In this document: piece after piece, positions 20,683 through 46,685 of the stretch | How positions within the stretch are numbered: position 1 is the first letter of the stretch | How the letters are laid out: each line of letters starts with the position of its first letter | DNA from: an uncultured Bacteroidota bacterium | GTDB taxonomy: Bacteria; Bacteroidota; Bacteroidia; Flavobacteriales; Flavobacteriaceae | DNA: 64,000 bases | Reading direction: 5' to 3' | Assembly: GCA_902510415.1 (NCBI GenBank) | Contig: CABXBH010000003.1 | Coordinates: 1-64,000, forward strand | Notes under the pieces: generated by a model | What the model saw: only the letters and a program-made list of their open reading frames with translations | Databases searched by the model: none | Told to the model about the DNA's origin: nothing | Translations under genes and position numbers: made by a program

Positions 20683-22461
20683 CTATCCTTCACAACTTTC
20701 ACAATCTTTCTTCTGTTTGAATTTCTGAGCAGCATTCATACTATGTTGATAGTATAAAGATTTAAGACCCAGCTTCCATGCTGTGACATGAATCTTGTTA
20801 ATCTCTTTAGTAGATGTGTCAGGGTGAATAATAATATTGAGTGATTGACCTTGGTCAATATGGTTTTGCCTATTTGCGGCTTGATAGATAATTGCCATCT
20901 GGTCAATTTCAGAATATGTTTTGAATACCTCTTTTTCGTTATCAGAAAGAAAATCTAAATCTTGAACTGAACCATCTCTATCTCTTATTTGTTTCCAAAC
21001 TTCAGGCGTATCCATTCCCTTTTCTTCAAGGAGCTTTACCAAAAATGGATTCTTTATTGTTGTTTTAATTTTAGCAATATCCTTAACATATATGTTTGAC
21101 CAAATTGGTTCTATTCCTTGTGATACTTGACCAAGAATAAACGCAGAAGATGTAGTAGGTGCTACAGCATTCAAAGTTGTATTTCTTCTACCATACCCTT
21201 TTAGTAATTCTGGCTCACCAAACTTTTCAGCTAAATCTCTTGAAGCTTTATTTGAGTGTTCTTTTATATTTTTGAAAACTTCACTATTTAAATCGTAAGA
21301 TCCCTGACTATCGAAAGGTAGCATTTTGGATTGAAGTAGTGAATGCCATCCAAGTACACCCATTCCTAATGCTCTATTTTCTTTTGAAAAATTATAGGCA
21401 CGCTCCATGAAAAGGAATGTTTGTTGATCGTCTCTGTCATCTGAGTTTTTATAAACCTCAAGCTTTTCAAGGAATTCTGTTATAACAGCATCCAAAAAGT
21501 AGATCATTGTTTCTACAGCATCAGTATCTTTCCATTTATCATAATGCAATACATTGATGCTCGATAAGACACAAACAAAAGACCAATTATGATCTGATGG
21601 TAACATGATTTCTGTACACAAGTTACTAGCATAGATTGGTAAGTTTTTGTCTTTGTAAACATCAGCGGCACCATTGTTTGCATTGTCTGTGAAGAAAATA
21701 TAAGGATAGCCCATCTCTCCACGACTTTGTAAAACTTTTGCCCAAACAGTTCTCTTTTCTTCATCACCATCAATCATTTTTTGCATCCAATCATCTTTGA
21801 CTGTAACGCCATGAGTTAGCTCTTGAATTGGGTTACCTTCGGTTCCTATTTCTAGAAACTCCATAATATCTGGATGATCTATTGGAAGATATGGTGAGAA
21901 ACGCCCTCTTCTAACTGAGCCCTGACTAACAACATCTACCATAGACTCAAATAGTCTCATAATATGTACTGCGCCGGAAGCTTCTCCATTATCCTTAATG
22001 GCAGCTCCACGATGCCTAATTTTACCGAAATATCCGGATGTTCCTCCTCCAAGTTTAGACATCATCCCAACCTCAGATTGAGAATATAATATATTTCCTA
22101 TGTCATCATCAATATGAGATCCAAAGCAGCTTATAGGTAAACCTCTTTCTTTTCCAAAATTTGACCAAACAGGGGATGCTAACGAGTAATATCCTTCCGA
22201 CATATAATGATAGAATTTTTTAGCAAACCCAGGCATTTCTAAAAGTTCCTCTGCCCTTTCTGCGATATCTGCAATTCTTTCTTCTGCAGAAACACTATCT
22301 CCTAAATATCCAGCAGCAAGAAACTTTCTACTGTTTTCATTAAGCCACTCAAACTGTTTTTCAGAGCCTTCATTAAATTTCTTCATTGATTCTTTCCTTG
22401 CTTGAATTAAATCTTCGTTAGCGTTTATTGTTTTCTTTTTAGTAGTTAGTTTTTTCTCCAT
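20683..22461 (-). CDS. nrdA: Ribonucleoside-diphosphate reductase class I, alpha subunit (no N-terminal ATP-cone)
   Basis: LPISCFGSHIDDD, radical-site ASNLCTEIMLPSD, FVCVLSSINV, C-terminal redox CESC. Starts directly in the core without an ATP-cone. Confidence 0.95.
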   Translation of the reverse strand: MEKKLTTKKKTINANEDLIQARKESMKKFNEGSEKQFEWLNENSRKFLAAGYLGDSVSAEERIADIAERAEELLEMPGFAKKFYHYMSEGYYSLASPVWSNFGKERGLPISCFGSHIDDDIGNILYSQSEVGMMSKLGGGTSGYFGKIRHRGAAIKDNGEASGAVHIMRLFESMVDVVSQGSVRRGRFSPYLPIDHPDIMEFLEIGTEGNPIQELTHGVTVKDDWMQKMIDGDEEKRTVWAKVLQSRGEMGYPYIFFTDNANNGAADVYKDKNLPIYASNLCTEIMLPSDHNWSFVCVLSSINVLHYDKWKDTDAVETMIYFLDAVITEFLEKLEVYKNSDDRDDQQTFLFMERAYNFSKENRALGMGVLGWHSLLQSKMLPFDSQGSYDLNSEVFKNIKEHSNKASRDLAEKFGEPELLKGYGRRNTTLNAVAPTTSSAFILGQVSQGIEPIWSNIYVKDIAKIKTTIKNPFLVKLLEEKGMDTPEVWKQIRDRDGSVQDLDFLSDNEKEVFKTYSEIDQMAIIYQAANRQNHIDQGQSLNIIIHPDTSTKEINKIHVTAWKLGLKSLYYQHSMNAAQKFKQKKDCESCEG

Positions 22462-22464
22462 ATT

Positions 22465-23739
22465 CTAAAAAAGATCATCACTAGTTATACTTTGACTTCT
22501 TTTGCTATAATTTATTGAACGTTTCACAAAAAAGTCTCCATGTTTGGTCCCAATAATTTCATCATCAAACCATTCAGTTTCCAAAACTAAATTTTGATCA
22601 ATGTCAAATATTTTATCAATTCCAATACTTTCTAAAGAATTGTTAAATCTATTTTTTAAAAATTCATTAACCACTGCTTTTGGTAAAAAATCAAGCTCTC
22701 CATCTTCAAAAATCCAATCAACAACTTCTTTCTCCGCTTCGAAAGCTTCTTTACACATTTCCTGTATGCTTTTGTGGTATTCATCCGTAAACCACTCAGG
22801 GTTTTCTTCTTTAAGAATTTTTATTAGGTCAATTCCAAAATCTCCATGGATTTGCTCTTCCTTGGATGTAGCTTCAACCACATTAGAAATACCTTTCAGC
22901 ATATTTTTATGTTTGTTGAAAGCCATGATGATTAAGAATTGTGAGAAAAGAGAAACATGTTCGATGAACAATGAAAACAGAAGAACCGATTCTGCATATT
23001 CTCTATCATCTTCGCTTCTAGAATTTTTGAGTGCTGTTTCTAAATAGCGAACTCTTTTCATAATCGCTGGTTTTTTCTTGAGTTCTTTAAACTCTGAGTT
23101 CAGTCCCAGTATCTCAAGTAGATGAGAATAAGCATCAGCATGACGAACTTCACTCTCTGCAAATGTTGATCCGACAGAGCCAATTTCTGGCTTTGGGATT
23201 CTGTGGTACAAGTCTCCCCAGAATGATTTTACAGCAACCTCTATTTGAGAAATTGCTAACATAGTATTTTTAATAGCGCTTCTTTCGGTATCTGATAATC
23301 GTGATTTAAAATCTTGAATATCACTTGTAAAATTAAATTCAGAATGAATCCAATAAGAATGTCTTATAGCAGGGACATATTCATAAAGATGAGGATATTC
23401 ATACGGCTTTAAATTAATTCGTTTTTCAAACAAGTCTGATTGTCTTTTTTCAGATTGTTTATTTCTATATAGAATGTATGCTTTAGCAGCCTCTTTAAAC
23501 TTACTTTGCATAAGTTCGGTCTCAACAATATCTTGAACCTCCTCAATAGTTGGGACATAATCATTGTCATTATTTTTCCTATCAAGAAGTGTTTGATAAA
23601 CAGAAAATGCAACATCCTGTGCATTTTGTTCACTACCAGTTCCAACTGCATCCATTGCTTTTTGGATGGCTCCACTAATCTTCTCCAAATGGAATGGTTT
23701 AGTACTGTAATCTCTCTTAAGTATATGTTTAATCTCCAT
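22465..23739 (-). CDS. nrdB: Ribonucleoside-diphosphate reductase class I, beta subunit with N-terminal ATP-cone
   Basis: Residues ~1-95 (IKHILKRDYSTKPFHLEKISGAIQKAM...EEVQDIVETELMQSKFKEAAKAYILYRNKQSE) are ATP-cone-like. The core has SEVRHADAYSHLL, FIEHVSLFSQF, EEQIHGDFG metal/tyrosine motifs. Confidence 0.94.
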   Translation of the reverse strand: MEIKHILKRDYSTKPFHLEKISGAIQKAMDAVGTGSEQNAQDVAFSVYQTLLDRKNNDNDYVPTIEEVQDIVETELMQSKFKEAAKAYILYRNKQSEKRQSDLFEKRINLKPYEYPHLYEYVPAIRHSYWIHSEFNFTSDIQDFKSRLSDTERSAIKNTMLAISQIEVAVKSFWGDLYHRIPKPEIGSVGSTFAESEVRHADAYSHLLEILGLNSEFKELKKKPAIMKRVRYLETALKNSRSEDDREYAESVLLFSLFIEHVSLFSQFLIIMAFNKHKNMLKGISNVVEATSKEEQIHGDFGIDLIKILKEENPEWFTDEYHKSIQEMCKEAFEAEKEVVDWIFEDGELDFLPKAVVNEFLKNRFNNSLESIGIDKIFDIDQNLVLETEWFDDEIIGTKHGDFFVKRSINYSKRSQSITSDDLF

Positions 23740-27029: not shown

Positions 27030-27365
27030 CTAATATAGTAAATGTTTTTTCTCTTTGCTTTGCCATCCAGCCTGTGACTTGTAGTCTACAAAAAAGATTT
27101 TCAAATCTGCCTGGCTTTTATAGTCTACAAAATAAATATTAAAATCTGCCTGGCTTTTATAATCAACAAAATACCATAAACCTTCATTGCCTTTTGCTTG
27201 ACTTTTATAGTCAACTTTATAAACCAATAAATCTGCTTGACTTTTATAATCAACTACATACAAACTGATATCTGCTTGACTTTTATAATCAACCGAAAAA
27301 AGAGTCTGAGCGTTTGAGTAAAAAGCGCTCAGGAAAAATATTAAAACTAACTTTTTCATATTCAA
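27030..27365 (-). CDS. Secreted VDYKSQA-repeat protein, 7(1) septoil-knot-like family
   Basis: Signal peptide then six copies of VDYKSQA alternating with short beta strands; ends GWQSKEKKHLLY. Confidence 0.85.
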   Translation of the reverse strand: MNMKKLVLIFFLSAFYSNAQTLFSVDYKSQADISLYVVDYKSQADLLVYKVDYKSQAKGNEGLWYFVDYKSQADFNIYFVDYKSQADLKIFFVDYKSQAGWQSKEKKHLLY

Positions 27366-27428
27366 ATTTAATCAATAGTTATGCCACGAGCATATTTAAT
27401 AAAAATCATTAGCTTTATTGATTATATT

Positions 27429-28043
27429 ATGGAAAATAAACTTCATTGGGAAAAGATATATCAAACCAAAAAAATTGATGGAGTAAGTTGGTATCAAGAA
27501 ACTCCATCCGAATCAGTTGAACTAATTAAAAAATTTTCAACCACTAATTCCGATATAATAATTGATATTGGTTGCGGAAAAGGGTTTTTGGCCGATAATC
27601 TCTTAAAATTAAATTATAAGAATATTACCCTAGTTGATATTTCTAAAAATGCATTAAACGAAGTTAAAGAGAGGGTAAATAATAAAAGCCTAAATTTTAT
27701 TGAAACTGATGTGCTAAATCTAAAATCCGAACAGACGTTTGATATTTGGCATGACAGAGCAGTATTTCATTTTATTACCGAGAAGGAAGGTATTGAAAAA
27801 TATATTTCCCTTTGTAATAAATATATTAGTAAAGAAGGTAAATTAATTATCGGAACCTTTGCAGAAGACGGACCTTTGAAATGTAGCGGTTTAGAAATCA
27901 AAAGATATTCAATTAACGATTTAAAAGAGTTGTTTAAGGAAAATTTTGAATTTATTGAAGGGTTTAAAAAATTACACAGCACCCCATTTGATACTCAACA
28001 AAGTTTTACGTTTTGTGTTTTTAAAAAGGTTACTAATCGTTAG
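27429..28043 (+). CDS. Class I SAM-dependent methyltransferase
   Basis: IIDIGCGKGFLADNLL motif I; VDIS; DIWHDRAVFHFI. Start taken at MENKLHWEKIYQ. Confidence 0.88.
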   Translation: MENKLHWEKIYQTKKIDGVSWYQETPSESVELIKKFSTTNSDIIIDIGCGKGFLADNLLKLNYKNITLVDISKNALNEVKERVNNKSLNFIETDVLNLKSEQTFDIWHDRAVFHFITEKEGIEKYISLCNKYISKEGKLIIGTFAEDGPLKCSGLEIKRYSINDLKELFKENFEFIEGFKKLHSTPFDTQQSFTFCVFKKVTNR

Positions 28044-28474: not shown

Positions 28475-31400
28475 TTATAAAATATTTAATTGCTTTTTTA
28501 AGCTTTTTATTTCTTTCTGTTGTTCTTTAATCGCGTTGATTAGTATCGGAACAAAGCCTTGATAATTTACAGAAAGAGTTCCTTTTTTATCTCCCGATTG
28601 CTTCACTAATGCTGGAAACACTTTTTTAATATCCTGGGCTAGTAGTCCAATTTTCTTAATTGACTCTTGTGATTCCAATGTATATATTTTTCCGTCAATC
28701 AATAATAATTTTGAAAGTATATTACCAAGAGAAGTAATGTTAGCTTTTAGTCTAGCATCAGATTCTACAGTAAGCTCCCCAGACAGAGTTGCTGAACCAT
28801 CATAGTTAACAATAAATGCATTGGATGGATTACTTCCTGCTCCTCCAGTTGCAGAGTCTATATCACCATTCCCAACAACAAAAGCAACTCCTGGATTTGA
28901 ACCTGTATAATTACCATCGGCATAATAATAACCCCCATAATCATTGGGGTCTGCTGTCGTGTCTCCAATACCTGCAGCATTATTTACTCCCACTGCTAAC
29001 ATTCCAAAATTGTCTGATGTTGTTCCGATTCCTAAAGAAGCAGAAGCCTGATTGTTTGCAGTAGTATATTGATTCGCTGCAAAAGAACTTCTACCTTGTG
29101 CGAAGGTGCCATGACCAATAGCAGTAGCACTTCCTCCAGTACCCTCACCTGCACTCGTATCTCCAGCTACAGTTTGATAGCCAGCTGTAAAATTCGTAGT
29201 TCCCCATGCTACAGATTCCTTACCCATGGCTACTGATCCACCACCAGCTGCATGTGCTTTTTCTCCCATTGCTATTGTACTAGCTCCTTGTGCCCAATTC
29301 TCTTTACCCATGGCGATAGAAGAATCCCCCGTAGCGTAATTATAATTACCCATAGCTACTGAAGCTTGTCCTGAAGCTGTATTTCTAAATCCTGTTGCTG
29401 TAGAGATATTACCAATCGCTCTAGATGCCCATCCTAAAGAAAGCTGACCGACATTACCTCCGTCAATACCTCCTGCTTCAGATGTTTGTGGACCAGCGAT
29501 AGTACTAAAACCCATAGATACAGATCCTAATCCTGATGCTCTATTGTATGCATTTGCTGTAAATGAACCCCAGCCAACAGCACCCATTCCACTATGTAAT
29601 AATGTCCAGTTTCCATCTCCTTGATTGTACAAAGGATGACCTTGTTCTGTAAAGCCCCCATGATTCTGGGCAGCCTGCAATGGAGTCTTTTCAGATACCG
29701 TAAAATCTACACTCCAGTCACCTGGATTACCAAAAGCATCGTTTGAATTTCCATTTCCATTCCTTGATGCACCTCGAACTGAAGAAGCATAAATCTTTCC
29801 ATTATATGGATTGCCGCTGCCGTCCTCAACAAAAATAACCGCAGCCTTCTTATCCTGGTCACTATCAACTCCTCCTCCATTTTCATCACAGTTTCCTGAA
29901 ATACAGTAATAACTAAAAGGTACTATTTCAATACCATTTGAATTGGTAATATTATCTTCTAAATTGTTAAATAAACCAATCAATGAAAGTCTTGCTTCAC
30001 TTCCAGGGTTACCACTAAGAGTCAAGGACAAAATATTATTATTAATTGAAAAATTAGTGATTGTAACCGGATTCCCATTGGTAAATAAAAAGTCACTATT
30101 TAATTTACTTAAAATATTACTTTGATTACTAGAATTAGTCATTAAAGATTCAGCTGTAGTAGAAATATTTAGTTGTGTATTTTGATTTGAAAGAGAAATA
30201 CTAGAAATCATAGGGGCATTAATATCCTGCTCAAATGACATACCATAAATATCACTCAGTACAGGATTGATAATTCTTAATCCAAACTTTTCATATCCAT
30301 TTGTAAAAGGATAATGACAATAGTCTGAATGTAAGGTCATCCCAGTAGTTGGCATAATTGATACATTGTTATTTTCAACAGCCAATAGTCTTTGAGCTTC
30401 TTTCACAGCAAGTCTTCCAGATGAACTAGTACCACAATTACATTCTCTCGTTTGAAATATATAATAATGTTCAATATTAGGATAGTCCTCTTGCCAAAAA
30501 GTCATCAGGTTTTCAAAATAACTTTTGTATTGTTCAGTAGAAAGAGTATTTGAAACTCCTGAATTTGACTCACCTTGAGACCAAAGTATTCCTCTGACAT
30601 TGTCTTTTAGTCCAGTCTTTTCTAAACGGTAAAAAAGTCTTCCATAATTGGAGTCCGTTGAGGTTTGATAATTACTTGGTCTTTGAAAAAATTCTATTGG
30701 CTGACCGCCATGTGCACCATTAAATATAGCTATAGGAATACTTAATTCATCAATTAGTTTTTTTGCAAGCACAAGACCCCATTGACCTGTATTACCATTT
30801 GTATTTTCATTTCCATCACCTTGTCCGTAATACCATTGTTCATTGTTAATTAATCCCGAAGAGCTGGTAGCGCCTCCAGCATAAACTCTTACATAATCAC
30901 TATTGTAAGGCGAAGAAGTTCCGCTATACTGAACTGCAGCTGCATTGGATTGACCCTGAACAATAAAAACATCACCACTAACAATATCATTGACTTCTTT
31001 GATTAGCATTGATTCGTTTTGTGAGTCAGCATAGATTTTAATATCATATTTAGACAATTCAGCATTTAAACTAATATCAATATCAAATTGTGAATTGTTA
31101 TTTGTAAAATTTAAATTCTCCACGAATGTATCTTGTAAAGCGCCTGACTTGTATACTTCTACAGTAATTGATTCAAATGAAATTTCTTCATCTGTGGGCT
31201 CAACCCATTTCCAGCCTTGGCTAGGTTCACTGTAATTCTGAGAAGATGTGTCCTGATACAAACCAATCCAACCTCTAAAATTGCCCATTTCAGCTACTGC
31301 ATTATTTTCTTCTATCGTTTGATGGGATGACAAGTATGCTCCTAAGCTTAGAGCATCAGATTTTGCAGATTCCCAGTCCAAACTTTGTGGATTTTTAAAA

Positions 31401-31780
31401 TAACTATGTCCGTTGTATTGTCCCAGAAACTCATAATTACCTAAAGAATTAATAAGACCATTGTATTCAACATAAGATGGATTTAATGAATTTGCAGAAG
31501 CATCATTCCATTGACCAACTAATATTGTTGTATTTCCAAACATTTCAACAACATCTTCTGGTGGAGGATTATTATTTGGTTCACCGCTTTTCCAATTAGT
31601 ATACGCAAGATCAAAATAAGGCCCATTAGTCACAGAGCCGCTAATATTGAGAACTCCTTGATTTGTTGATAAATCTCTTGCTATTAACTGTTTATTTTCA
31701 GGAATTGAAGAAAAAGAAACTTGTCCATTTGTAATTACGTATGTAAAAAAAAGTAATAGAAATACTATAAAATTTTTCAT
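28475..31780 (-). CDS. Secreted multidomain protein: SASA (SGNH) esterase with inserted C-type-lectin-like segment, YadA-like head repeats and C-terminal S74 intramolecular chaperone
   Basis: Signal peptide MKNFIVFLLLFFTYVITNGQ. CTLD-like WKSGEPNN...GQWND and YNGHSYFKNPQSLDWESAKSDALSLGAYLSS. SASA GQSNA...GILWSQGESNSG. YadA-type AxGxxSxAxG repeats. S74 motif SDARLKANI and C-terminal coiled coil. Confidence 0.9.
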   Translation of the reverse strand: MKNFIVFLLLFFTYVITNGQVSFSSIPENKQLIARDLSTNQGVLNISGSVTNGPYFDLAYTNWKSGEPNNNPPPEDVVEMFGNTTILVGQWNDASANSLNPSYVEYNGLINSLGNYEFLGQYNGHSYFKNPQSLDWESAKSDALSLGAYLSSHQTIEENNAVAEMGNFRGWIGLYQDTSSQNYSEPSQGWKWVEPTDEEISFESITVEVYKSGALQDTFVENLNFTNNNSQFDIDISLNAELSKYDIKIYADSQNESMLIKEVNDIVSGDVFIVQGQSNAAAVQYSGTSSPYNSDYVRVYAGGATSSSGLINNEQWYYGQGDGNENTNGNTGQWGLVLAKKLIDELSIPIAIFNGAHGGQPIEFFQRPSNYQTSTDSNYGRLFYRLEKTGLKDNVRGILWSQGESNSGVSNTLSTEQYKSYFENLMTFWQEDYPNIEHYYIFQTRECNCGTSSSGRLAVKEAQRLLAVENNNVSIMPTTGMTLHSDYCHYPFTNGYEKFGLRIINPVLSDIYGMSFEQDINAPMISSISLSNQNTQLNISTTAESLMTNSSNQSNILSKLNSDFLFTNGNPVTITNFSINNNILSLTLSGNPGSEARLSLIGLFNNLEDNITNSNGIEIVPFSYYCISGNCDENGGGVDSDQDKKAAVIFVEDGSGNPYNGKIYASSVRGASRNGNGNSNDAFGNPGDWSVDFTVSEKTPLQAAQNHGGFTEQGHPLYNQGDGNWTLLHSGMGAVGWGSFTANAYNRASGLGSVSMGFSTIAGPQTSEAGGIDGGNVGQLSLGWASRAIGNISTATGFRNTASGQASVAMGNYNYATGDSSIAMGKENWAQGASTIAMGEKAHAAGGGSVAMGKESVAWGTTNFTAGYQTVAGDTSAGEGTGGSATAIGHGTFAQGRSSFAANQYTTANNQASASLGIGTTSDNFGMLAVGVNNAAGIGDTTADPNDYGGYYYADGNYTGSNPGVAFVVGNGDIDSATGGAGSNPSNAFIVNYDGSATLSGELTVESDARLKANITSLGNILSKLLLIDGKIYTLESQESIKKIGLLAQDIKKVFPALVKQSGDKKGTLSVNYQGFVPILINAIKEQQKEIKSLKKQLNIL

Positions 31781-31811
31781 TATTTGTGGCCTTAAATAAG
31801 AATTGGACAAA

Positions 31812-31866: not shown

Positions 31867-33303
31867 TTAATTATTGATTAAAGCTTTCAGCTCATCAATT
31901 TGTTGTTGCTGTTCTTTAATAGCGTTGATTAGAACAGGTATCATACCTTGGTAGTTTACCGAAAGTGTTCCTTCTTCATCACCAGCCTCTTTTACTAATT
32001 CTGGGAAAGCTTTTTGAACTTCCTGAGCTAGTAAACCAATCTTTTCGATTGCTTGATTCGTTTTCATTGTGTATGATTTACCGTCTATCATTAATAGCTT
32101 AGAAATAGTATTTCCTAAAGAAACAATATTAGACTTAAGTCTCATATCAGAATTAACCGTTAGGTCTCCCGCAAGAGTTGCGCTACCATCATAATTGACT
32201 ATAAATGCATTAGAAGAATTAGTTCCAGCTAAACCATTAGAAGAATCGATATCTCCATTTCCAACAACAAAAGCAACACCTGGGTTTGAACCTGAATATG
32301 CGCCATCAACATAGTAGTATTGCTGTTCAGTATCTCCAATGCCGGCAGCATTATTAACACCAACTGCAACCATACCTACATTATCAGCTGTTGTACCTAA
32401 TCCCATTGAAGTAGCAGCTTGATTAGTTGCGCTAGTTCCTCTGTTTAATGCCATTGATGCATCACCAGATGCAGTATTGTATTTACCCATTGCTGTTGCA
32501 CTACCTCCAGTTCCAACACCTTGACTAGTATCTCCAGCAGTATTCTGGTACCCAGTAGTAAAGTTTGTTGTTCCCCAAGCTACATTTTCTTGACCAAGAG
32601 AAACAGAACCTGCACCAGCTGCATGATTTTTAAATCCAATAGCAATTGTGCTAGCACCTTCTGCCCAGTTTTCTTTTCCTAAAGAAATTGAAGAATCACC
32701 TGTAGCATAGTTGTAATTCCCCATTGCAACAGTTGAAGTACCAAGAGCAGAGTTTCTAAATCCAGAAACAAAAGAAATATTTCCTAAAGCTCTAGATCCC
32801 CATCCAAAAGAAGCTTGACCTACATTACCACCATCAATTCCACCAGCTTCAGATGTCTGTGGTCCAGCAATTGTATTAAAACCCATTGCTACTGAACCTA
32901 ATCCAGCTGCTCTATTATAAGCATTGGCTGAAAAAGAACCCCATGCAACTGAACCCATTCCATTATGAATCTGTGATAAATTTCCATCACCTTGAGAATA
33001 TAATGGATGACCTGATTCGGTAAAGCCACCAAAAGATTGCGCTGCATCTTGAGGCGATTTCTCAGAAACTGTTAGATCAACACTCCAGTCTCCAGGATTA
33101 CCAAAGGCACCGTTAGAGTTTCCATTTCCGTTTCTTGATGCTCCTCTAACTGATGAAGCATAAATTTTTCCGTTATATACGTTTCCGTCACCGTCCTCGA
33201 CAAAAACGATTGCAGGCTTTTTATCTTGGTCAGCCGCTTGACCAAATGTATTAGCAATTCCAAATAAAAAAGCAATTGCAAAAAGTAAAGTTATTTTTTT
33301 CAT
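31867..33303 (-). CDS. Secreted YadA-like head repeat protein with C-terminal S74 peptidase/chaperone domain (tail-fiber-domain protein)
   Basis: Signal peptide, YadA-type repeats (GSVAMGFNTIAG...ATGDSSISLGKENWAEGASTIAIG), SDMRLKSNI S74 motif. Close paralogue of the C-terminal half of the 28475-31780 product. Confidence 0.9.
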   Translation of the reverse strand: MKKITLLFAIAFLFGIANTFGQAADQDKKPAIVFVEDGDGNVYNGKIYASSVRGASRNGNGNSNGAFGNPGDWSVDLTVSEKSPQDAAQSFGGFTESGHPLYSQGDGNLSQIHNGMGSVAWGSFSANAYNRAAGLGSVAMGFNTIAGPQTSEAGGIDGGNVGQASFGWGSRALGNISFVSGFRNSALGTSTVAMGNYNYATGDSSISLGKENWAEGASTIAIGFKNHAAGAGSVSLGQENVAWGTTNFTTGYQNTAGDTSQGVGTGGSATAMGKYNTASGDASMALNRGTSATNQAATSMGLGTTADNVGMVAVGVNNAAGIGDTEQQYYYVDGAYSGSNPGVAFVVGNGDIDSSNGLAGTNSSNAFIVNYDGSATLAGDLTVNSDMRLKSNIVSLGNTISKLLMIDGKSYTMKTNQAIEKIGLLAQEVQKAFPELVKEAGDEEGTLSVNYQGMIPVLINAIKEQQQQIDELKALINN

Positions 33304-44432: not shown

Positions 44433-46685
44433 ATGCAGAAAAAAATATATTTAATAATCGCTGTTGTATTTATCTCATGTGCAACATATTTAGGAAAGAG
44501 TGATAAATTAATAAATTATGTGGATCCGTTCATAGGCTCTGGTGGTCACGGTCATGTGTTTGTTGGAGCAAATGTGCCATTCGGAGGTGTTCAGGTTGGT
44601 CCTACGAATTTTAATAAAGGTTGGGACTGGTCTTCTTCTTATCATCACACAGACAGTATCGTCAAAGGATTTTGTCATATAAATGTAAGCGGTACAGGAA
44701 TGTCTGATTTAGGTGAGTTAACAATTATGCCTGCGACCGGAAAATTAATGACTGGTGCTGGTACGCAAAATAATCATATGGCAGGATATTCCTCACTTTA
44801 CTATAAAGACAAAGAACATGCAAGTGTAGGATATTACAAGGTGCATTTAGAGAGATATGATATTGATGTCGAACTTACAGCAACTGAAAGAGTTGGATTA
44901 CATAAATATAGATTTCCCAAATCTGATCAGTCCAGAGTTATTATTGATCTAGGTGAAGGAAGTGCAGATAGGCCAACAGAAACATATTTAAAAAAAATTA
45001 ATGATACTCTTTTTCAAGGACACAGATTTTCCTCCGGATGGGCTAGAGACCAAAGAGAATATTTTAGTCTTATAATTTCGAAACCTGTAGATGATTTTAT
45101 TCTTTACGATAGGCATAAAAAATTTAAAGGTGAAGAAAGAAAAGGAGATTACGTGAAAGGGTTTTTAGAATTTTCAACAAGAAGCAATGAGAATATTATG
45201 GTTAAAATGGGAATATCTACAGTAAGCTCAAAAAATGCATTAGAAAATATGATGATTGAGCTACCTCACTGGGATTTTTCGAAGGTTAAAAAAGATGCAG
45301 AAAAAAAATGGGAGAAAGAACTTTCTAAAATCAAAATTAAAACTGATGAAATAAAGAAAAAAAGAGTCTTTTATACGGCAATGTATCACACGATGATTGC
45401 TCCAAACCTATATCATGATTTAAATGGAGAATACAGAGGGACTGACAAAATAGTTTACAAGGACTCTTCCTTCACTAATTATACATTATTTTCTCTTTGG
45501 GATACATATAGAGCAGCTCACCCTCTATACACGATAACCCATCCTGAAAGGGTGAGTGATTTTGTTAATTCTATGGTTAAGATATATGAACACCAAGGCA
45601 AATTACCCGTTTGGCATCTTCGCGGAAATGAAACCAACACAATGCCTGGCTACAGCGGTATCCCGGTTGTTATCGATGCTGCTTTAAAGGGGTTTGAAAA
45701 TATTGATCTTGAAAAAGTATATGAAGCAGCAAAAGTAAGCGCCACAGGGGATTTTGAGCCTGGAGTTAAAGATTTAATGGAAAGAGGATATATACCTGCT
45801 GATTTTATGGTTGAATCTGTAGCAAGTAGCATGGAATATGCAATTGGAGATTGGGGTGTAGCACAATTGGCAAAAAAACTTGGTAAAACAGAAGATTATG
45901 AATATTTCTTGAACCGATCTAAGGCTTACAAACAGTACTTCGATCCCGAAACTAGATTTATGAGAGGTAAACTTTCTGACGGTTCGTGGAGAACTCCATT
46001 CAATCCAGTTTCAGCTGAACATCGAGTAAATGATTATTGTGAAGGAAATGCATGGCAATATCTTTGGCTTGTGCCTCAAGACCCAGAAGGGTTAATAGAA
46101 TTATTAGGTGGAGATGAAGCATTCAATGAAAAATTAGACGAATTGTTTAGTATGTCTTCAGAATTAGGGGATGAAGCCTCAATGGATATTACAGGTTTAA
46201 TAGGTCAGTATGCTCATGGTAATGAACCTAGTCATCATACTACTTACATGTATGCATATTCTGGTGAACATTACAAAATAGCTGATAAAGTTAGATATAT
46301 AAACAATGAATTATATACTGATGAGCCTAACGGGCTTTCTGGTAATGAAGATTGTGGACAAATGTCCGCATGGTATATATTATCTTCAATGGGATTCTAT
46401 CCTGTAAATCCATCTAATGGAGCATATGTGTTTGGATCACCTCTTTTTGATGAAGTCTCTTTAAATATTCCTGGTCAAAATAAATTTAAAATTTCGGCTA
46501 AGAATAACAGTGACAAAAATATTTATATTCAATCCGTTTCACTAAACGGAGAGGATTACAAATATTCTTACATTACTCACAAACAAATTTTAGAGGGAGG
46601 TAAGCTTGAATTTGTGATGGGTCCGAATCCAAATAAAAATTTTGGTACAGAAAAAAAATACAGACCTAAATCTATAGTTTATTAA
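44433..46685 (+). CDS. GH92 family alpha-mannosidase
   Basis: YVDPFIGSGGHGHVFVGANVPFGGVQVGP, SLWDTYRAAHPL, YCEGNAWQYLW, HGNEPSHHTTYMY, GLSGNEDCGQMSAWYILSSMGFYPVNP. Confidence 0.96.
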   Translation: MQKKIYLIIAVVFISCATYLGKSDKLINYVDPFIGSGGHGHVFVGANVPFGGVQVGPTNFNKGWDWSSSYHHTDSIVKGFCHINVSGTGMSDLGELTIMPATGKLMTGAGTQNNHMAGYSSLYYKDKEHASVGYYKVHLERYDIDVELTATERVGLHKYRFPKSDQSRVIIDLGEGSADRPTETYLKKINDTLFQGHRFSSGWARDQREYFSLIISKPVDDFILYDRHKKFKGEERKGDYVKGFLEFSTRSNENIMVKMGISTVSSKNALENMMIELPHWDFSKVKKDAEKKWEKELSKIKIKTDEIKKKRVFYTAMYHTMIAPNLYHDLNGEYRGTDKIVYKDSSFTNYTLFSLWDTYRAAHPLYTITHPERVSDFVNSMVKIYEHQGKLPVWHLRGNETNTMPGYSGIPVVIDAALKGFENIDLEKVYEAAKVSATGDFEPGVKDLMERGYIPADFMVESVASSMEYAIGDWGVAQLAKKLGKTEDYEYFLNRSKAYKQYFDPETRFMRGKLSDGSWRTPFNPVSAEHRVNDYCEGNAWQYLWLVPQDPEGLIELLGGDEAFNEKLDELFSMSSELGDEASMDITGLIGQYAHGNEPSHHTTYMYAYSGEHYKIADKVRYINNELYTDEPNGLSGNEDCGQMSAWYILSSMGFYPVNPSNGAYVFGSPLFDEVSLNIPGQNKFKISAKNNSDKNIYIQSVSLNGEDYKYSYITHKQILEGGKLEFVMGPNPNKNFGTEKKYRPKSIVY

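Follow-up and report, generated by a model that had tools for sequence, protein, structure and literature searches.

A predicted exported six-repeat DUF6150 protein from a Flavobacteriaceae genome: turn residues that change together and a plausible 7_1 knot

A short gene within the window, a 64,000-nucleotide stretch of DNA from an uncultured member of the Flavobacteriaceae, encodes a signal peptide followed by six repeats so uniform that their central residues are the same in every copy. The question raised by this locus is what holds the repeats alike: copying at the level of DNA, a binding function of the repeated turns, or a fold in which the turns depend on one another, possibly one of the most complex protein knots.

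Gene architecture and family assignment

The gene lies on the reverse strand at positions 27030 to 27359 and encodes a protein of 109 amino acids, likely translated from the ATG at 27359-27357 and ending in a stop codon at 27032-27030; the open reading frame list gives it as 27030 to 27365 (-), with a TTG start that adds two residues relative to the ATG. The signal peptide (residues 1-18, MKKLVLIFFLSAFYSNAQ; 27306 to 27359, reverse strand) is predicted from sequence to be of the Sec/SPI type without a lipobox cysteine and ends in SNAQ. Homologues were collected as 172 unique sequences, 162 of which align over all six repeats, and a simple pattern finds a signal-like stretch ahead of repeat 1 in 156 of these 162. 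Neither a lipobox nor a type IX sorting tail was found in the window protein, which is therefore predicted to be periplasmic or freely secreted.

The remainder of the protein divides into six units, SVDYKSQADISLY / VVDYKSQADLLVY / KVDYKSQAKGNEGLWY / FVDYKSQADFNIY / FVDYKSQADLKIF / FVDYKSQAGWQS, followed by the tail KEKKHLLY, and the core VDYKSQA is identical to the letter in all six. Sequence and repeat alignment place repeat 1 (VDYKSQADISLYV) at 27255 to 27293, repeat 2 (VDYKSQADLLVYK) at 27216 to 27254, repeat 4 (VDYKSQADFNIYF) at 27129 to 27167 and repeat 5 (VDYKSQADLKIFF) at 27090 to 27128, all on the reverse strand. Regularity is broken in only two places: by the lengthened loop AKGNEGLWYF, which follows repeat 3, and by the tail GWQSKEKKHLLY, which follows repeat 6. 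Repeat 3 (VDYKSQAKGNEGLWYF; 27168 to 27215, reverse strand) has a loop three residues longer than the others, with a G and a W that are nearly constant among the aligned homologues (158 and 161 of 162, respectively). Repeat 6 and the C-terminal tail (VDYKSQAGWQSKEKKHLLY; 27033 to 27089, reverse strand) were delimited by repeat alignment and homologue conservation; the W after repeat 6 is kept in 156 of the 162 homologues, and the K, L and Y of the K..HLLY tail in 142, 132 and 123. The recurrence of the same six-repeat architecture in 162 homologues indicates that the window gene is real and not a chance reading frame. A six-repeat VDYKSQA protein with a signal peptide is what the earlier note had described, correctly apart from the two-residue difference in start codon.

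A Pfam scan assigned the protein to DUF6150 (PF19647) with an E-value of 1.9e-23 and 82.7 bits, three times the curated cut-off of 27, over residues 12-108 (model positions 3-98 of 98). This agrees with the earlier note, which had recognized an exported Bacteroidota repeat family and proposed an HMM search against its Pfam model; NCBIfam has no corresponding model. The layout of the collected DUF6150 members, consisting of six repeats, a G-x-W loop after repeat 3 and a GW...HLLY tail, is present in the window protein, and nothing essential differs. Judged by its sequence, the protein is an ordinary member of the family with unusually uniform repeats. The Pfam copy used here gives the name DUF6150; newer releases probably list this family as '7(1) septoil knot'. 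A literature search found no paper naming DUF6150, a Bacteroidota family that is known and widespread but unstudied.

Within the same taxonomic family, Pfam model searches identified DUF6150 in 25 of 201 and in 50 of 400 genomes; the figures were 73 of 395 for an order sample, 37 of 245 for a class sample, and 18 of 299 and 21 of 398 for two overlapping phylum samples. None of the 14 control genomes gave a match in any of these searches. Genomes of 1-2 Mb are among the positives, and phage and plasmid records gave no match. The gene is absent from one genome of the same genus (G901), which is uninformative as a sign of gene loss because the neighbouring gene is also missing there. Diverged paralogues with W-D-A-D or W-N-A-D turns and a degenerate middle stand beside a regular copy in three genomes (L169 in G821, L096 as the second gene of G747, and one on contig C79 of G607), and L168 of genome G812 resembles them.

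Genes for a DsbD-like protein and a dCMP deaminase adjoin the DUF6150 gene in only four close genomes; elsewhere the contexts differ, suggesting that the gene has no operon partner. In the window (region 27360-27429) it is divergent from a methyltransferase gene (27381 to 28043, forward strand), with only about 20 bases between the called starts; if the methyltransferase began further in, at the ATG at 27429 (MENKLHW...), a promoter could fit between the two genes. Elsewhere in the window, the small chain of a ribonucleotide reductase (22465 to 23739, reverse strand) carries an ATP-cone (PF03477, E-value 1.4e-20), placing this regulatory domain on the small subunit, and the large chain adjoins it (20683 to 22461, reverse strand). 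The products of two neighbouring genes on the reverse strand (28475 to 31810 and 31867 to 33303) each combine YadA-head repeats with a Peptidase_S74 chaperone at the C-terminus, and the first has an additional sialate O-acetylesterase (SASA) domain; both are predicted to be fibre-like surface proteins in this Bacteroidota genome.

Fixed repeat number and coordinated change of turn residues

The number of repeats is constant at six across the 157 homologues in which it was measured. In 141 of these, successive repeats start at intervals of 13-13-16-13-13; 12 have 13-13-15-13-13, and the remaining four show two further patterns. Slippage therefore does not alter copy number in this set, at odds with the suggestion in the earlier note that it could. 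Two signal-less, uninterrupted forms fall outside the 162-homologue set. L041 (genome G239, contig C1, about 45204-45398) has five 13-residue repeats followed by a Ser-rich stretch, a transmembrane stretch and an SH3_3-like domain, and L170 (genome G560, contig C50, 3376-3570) is a 65-residue protein of approximately five repeats in which VDREYKA recurs. Both are probably cytoplasmic, and of all the forms they may come closest to the solved cytoplasmic knot described below.

Numbering the core as V1 D2 Y3 K4 S5 Q6 A7 D8, strict conservation of D, K and Q, as first proposed for this protein, holds for every turn of the window protein but not across DUF6150, where D occupies position 2 in 45%, K position 4 in 14% and Q position 6 in 73% (162 homologues). 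Replacement of this Q, by R, K, E or D, affects most or all repeats of a protein simultaneously. Such coordinated replacement is the part of the finding worth following. Among the 162 homologues, residues at position 5 agree in 88% of comparisons between repeats within a protein and in 45% of comparisons of the same repeat between proteins; the corresponding values are 82% and 63% for position 3, and 76% and 55% for position 6. At all three positions, none of 500 shuffles of a 34-protein set reached the observed value, in a shuffle that ignores relatedness. In a tree from which these columns were left out, whole-protein state switches number at least 23 at position 5 and at least 8 each at positions 3 and 6, counts that may be inflated by tree error since the tree is built on a short protein and is rough. 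The residue types that alternate across proteins are S, N, Y and H, and Q, R, K, E and D. Individual homologues show six-fold switches to SRA (L023), HQA (L018), KSEA (L035), NQAYA (L188), SKYDA (L184), ADYKA (L116) and KSDA (L192), and mixed S, T and N intermediates (L028, L036, L033 and L009) speak for stepwise change. The coupling is flat with separation up to four repeats, the pooled difference between separations of 3-4 and 1 being -0.005 (95% interval -0.028 to 0.016), and at position 3 it weakens at the largest separation, between repeats 1 and 6.

Predicted fold and alternative explanations

We favour, with a probability of roughly 0.6, the reading that this protein is exported through the Sec pathway by way of its signal peptide and forms a single compact domain, all-beta and made up of six repeats and a closing tail, most probably a double-wound torus knot of the 7_1 type with turns that depend on one another. 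The reference for such a fold is Q9PR55, an 89-residue protein of Ureaplasma urealyticum (PMC13352647, PMC9278004). It was earlier predicted to form a 7_1 knot, with extra crossings arising from one more winding than in its 5_1-knotted homologue P73136 (PMC9278004), and its 7_1 topology is reported as confirmed by crystallography in PDB 8IWA (PMC13352647; PMC11223836), so the earlier note's description of the fold as predicted is out of date. AlphaFold is blind to topological barriers, and 5_1 and 7_1 knots are among those that may be real (PMC10672856).

Sequence searches of PDB chains, by phmmer with the window protein, with three family profiles and with the two uninterrupted variants, gave no match, including to 8IWA; in profile A3 the repeat-3 loop was omitted from the rows. 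Single-sequence AlphaFold modelling of the mature protein gave seven strands at low confidence (pLDDT 60), and the core without the tail was likewise of low confidence (pLDDT 54). The best PDB fold match in Foldseek searches with these low-confidence models had an E-value of 0.41, which is not meaningful, and 8IWA was absent among the 50 matches listed. In these searches the window protein showed no detectable sequence similarity to Q9PR55 or any other PDB chain; it resembles Q9PR55 in being small, single-domain and of about the same size, and the two are probably linked by family name. The Knotted Solenoid of Brevundimonas shares with the window protein a repeat-built beta structure and a knot, putative in the latter, but is described as a solenoid with a 3_1 knot that is nearest to the pentapeptide repeat proteins and exclusive to one bacterial group (PMC13123833). 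A 7_1 knot in the window protein is plausible.

Among the alternatives, a linear beta-solenoid or curli-like stack without a knot, in which six rungs would align their ladder residues along one axis, survives best, although we regard it as unlikely. The repeats are short and regular and carry residues of the stacked type (S, N, Q and Y); solenoids and curli use Asn, Gln and Ser ladders, and the model of the mature protein is all-strand. However, the repeat number of six, the extended loop that follows repeat 3 and the tail are all fixed, the coupling does not decay up to four repeats apart, and the Pfam scan of the window protein, read to an E-value of 1, found no curlin or solenoid repeat family. 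The flat coupling, measured in DUF6150 alone, is easier to reconcile with a closed or double-wound arrangement than with a linear stack, a suggestive rather than diagnostic result.

Repeats might also be kept alike by slippage or gene conversion in the DNA, with no structural meaning, which we consider improbable. The earlier note had remarked that the repeat is visible at the DNA level, and two tandem arrays of period 39 are indeed found (27082 to 27171 and 27195 to 27293, 85-88% matches). Within the window gene, repeats 1-3 share AGT CAA GCA and repeats 4-5 share AGC CAG GCA, and silent identity is 0.68 within halves and 0.43 across them, so occasional recent conversion is possible. Across the homologue set, however, the silent excess is almost nil: codons are identical in 51.4% of pairs at the same position and in 48.2% at different positions, and likeness is no greater between adjacent repeats (51.3%) than between distant ones (51.4%). 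Of the 91 genes with six serines, 51 use both AGY and TCN codons, repeat number never varies, and a pattern of recently homogenized copies with identical synonymous sites, recurring in several lineages, was not seen. Since the turns switch together while silent sites are barely homogenized, the repeats are on the whole coupled by selection on the protein and not by DNA copying. The least probable explanation is the repeated metal- or ligand-binding face put forward in the earlier note. In its favour, every turn of the window protein carries the same D, K, S and Q. Among the 162 homologues, however, the turns change type and charge: Q gives way to R, K, E or D, S to N, Y or H, and K to E, A, S or Q. 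No common ligand chemistry is therefore kept, and a conserved face of this kind, with the turn chemistry wholly replaced between relatives, is unlikely.

Returning to the knotted reading, each repeat would form a strand of about 8 residues (xIYFVDYx) followed by the turn S-Q-A-D, with the winding as solved for Q9PR55. The six turns would occupy equivalent, mutually dependent places, which would explain why positions 5 and 6 tend to the same residue type in all six copies; we infer this link from coupling to knot, and any symmetric repeat fold could give such coupling. The repeats would serve as a scaffold, combining a stacked side-chain ladder with closure of the knot, and we likewise infer the knot, the ladder geometry and the stability of the window protein. 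Our best guess at the role is a protease- and unfolding-resistant, hyperstable exported module, structural or binding. Any family-wide specificity would come from the G-x-W loop that follows repeat 3, which is invariant, and from the GW...K.HLLY tail, not from the repeated turns. A broader and doubtful proposal is that of a torus-knot family in which closed double-wound geometry makes the six turns cooperative, so that a residue is replaced throughout, and in which knot type follows repeat number; the five-repeat L041 and L170 and the six-repeat exported form would then be different torus knots.

Significance for the DUF6150 family

The surprise in this family is that relatives exchange a key residue of the repeat across all six copies, with hardly any trace at silent sites of copying between repeats. 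DUF6150 allows selection on the protein to be told apart from concerted evolution of the DNA within a short repeat gene, and 162 aligned homologues with many concerted turn switches make the constraint of a knot on sequence testable. If the knot is true, six copies of a 13-residue unit would be among the simplest genetic recipes for a protein knot that ranks with the most complex known.
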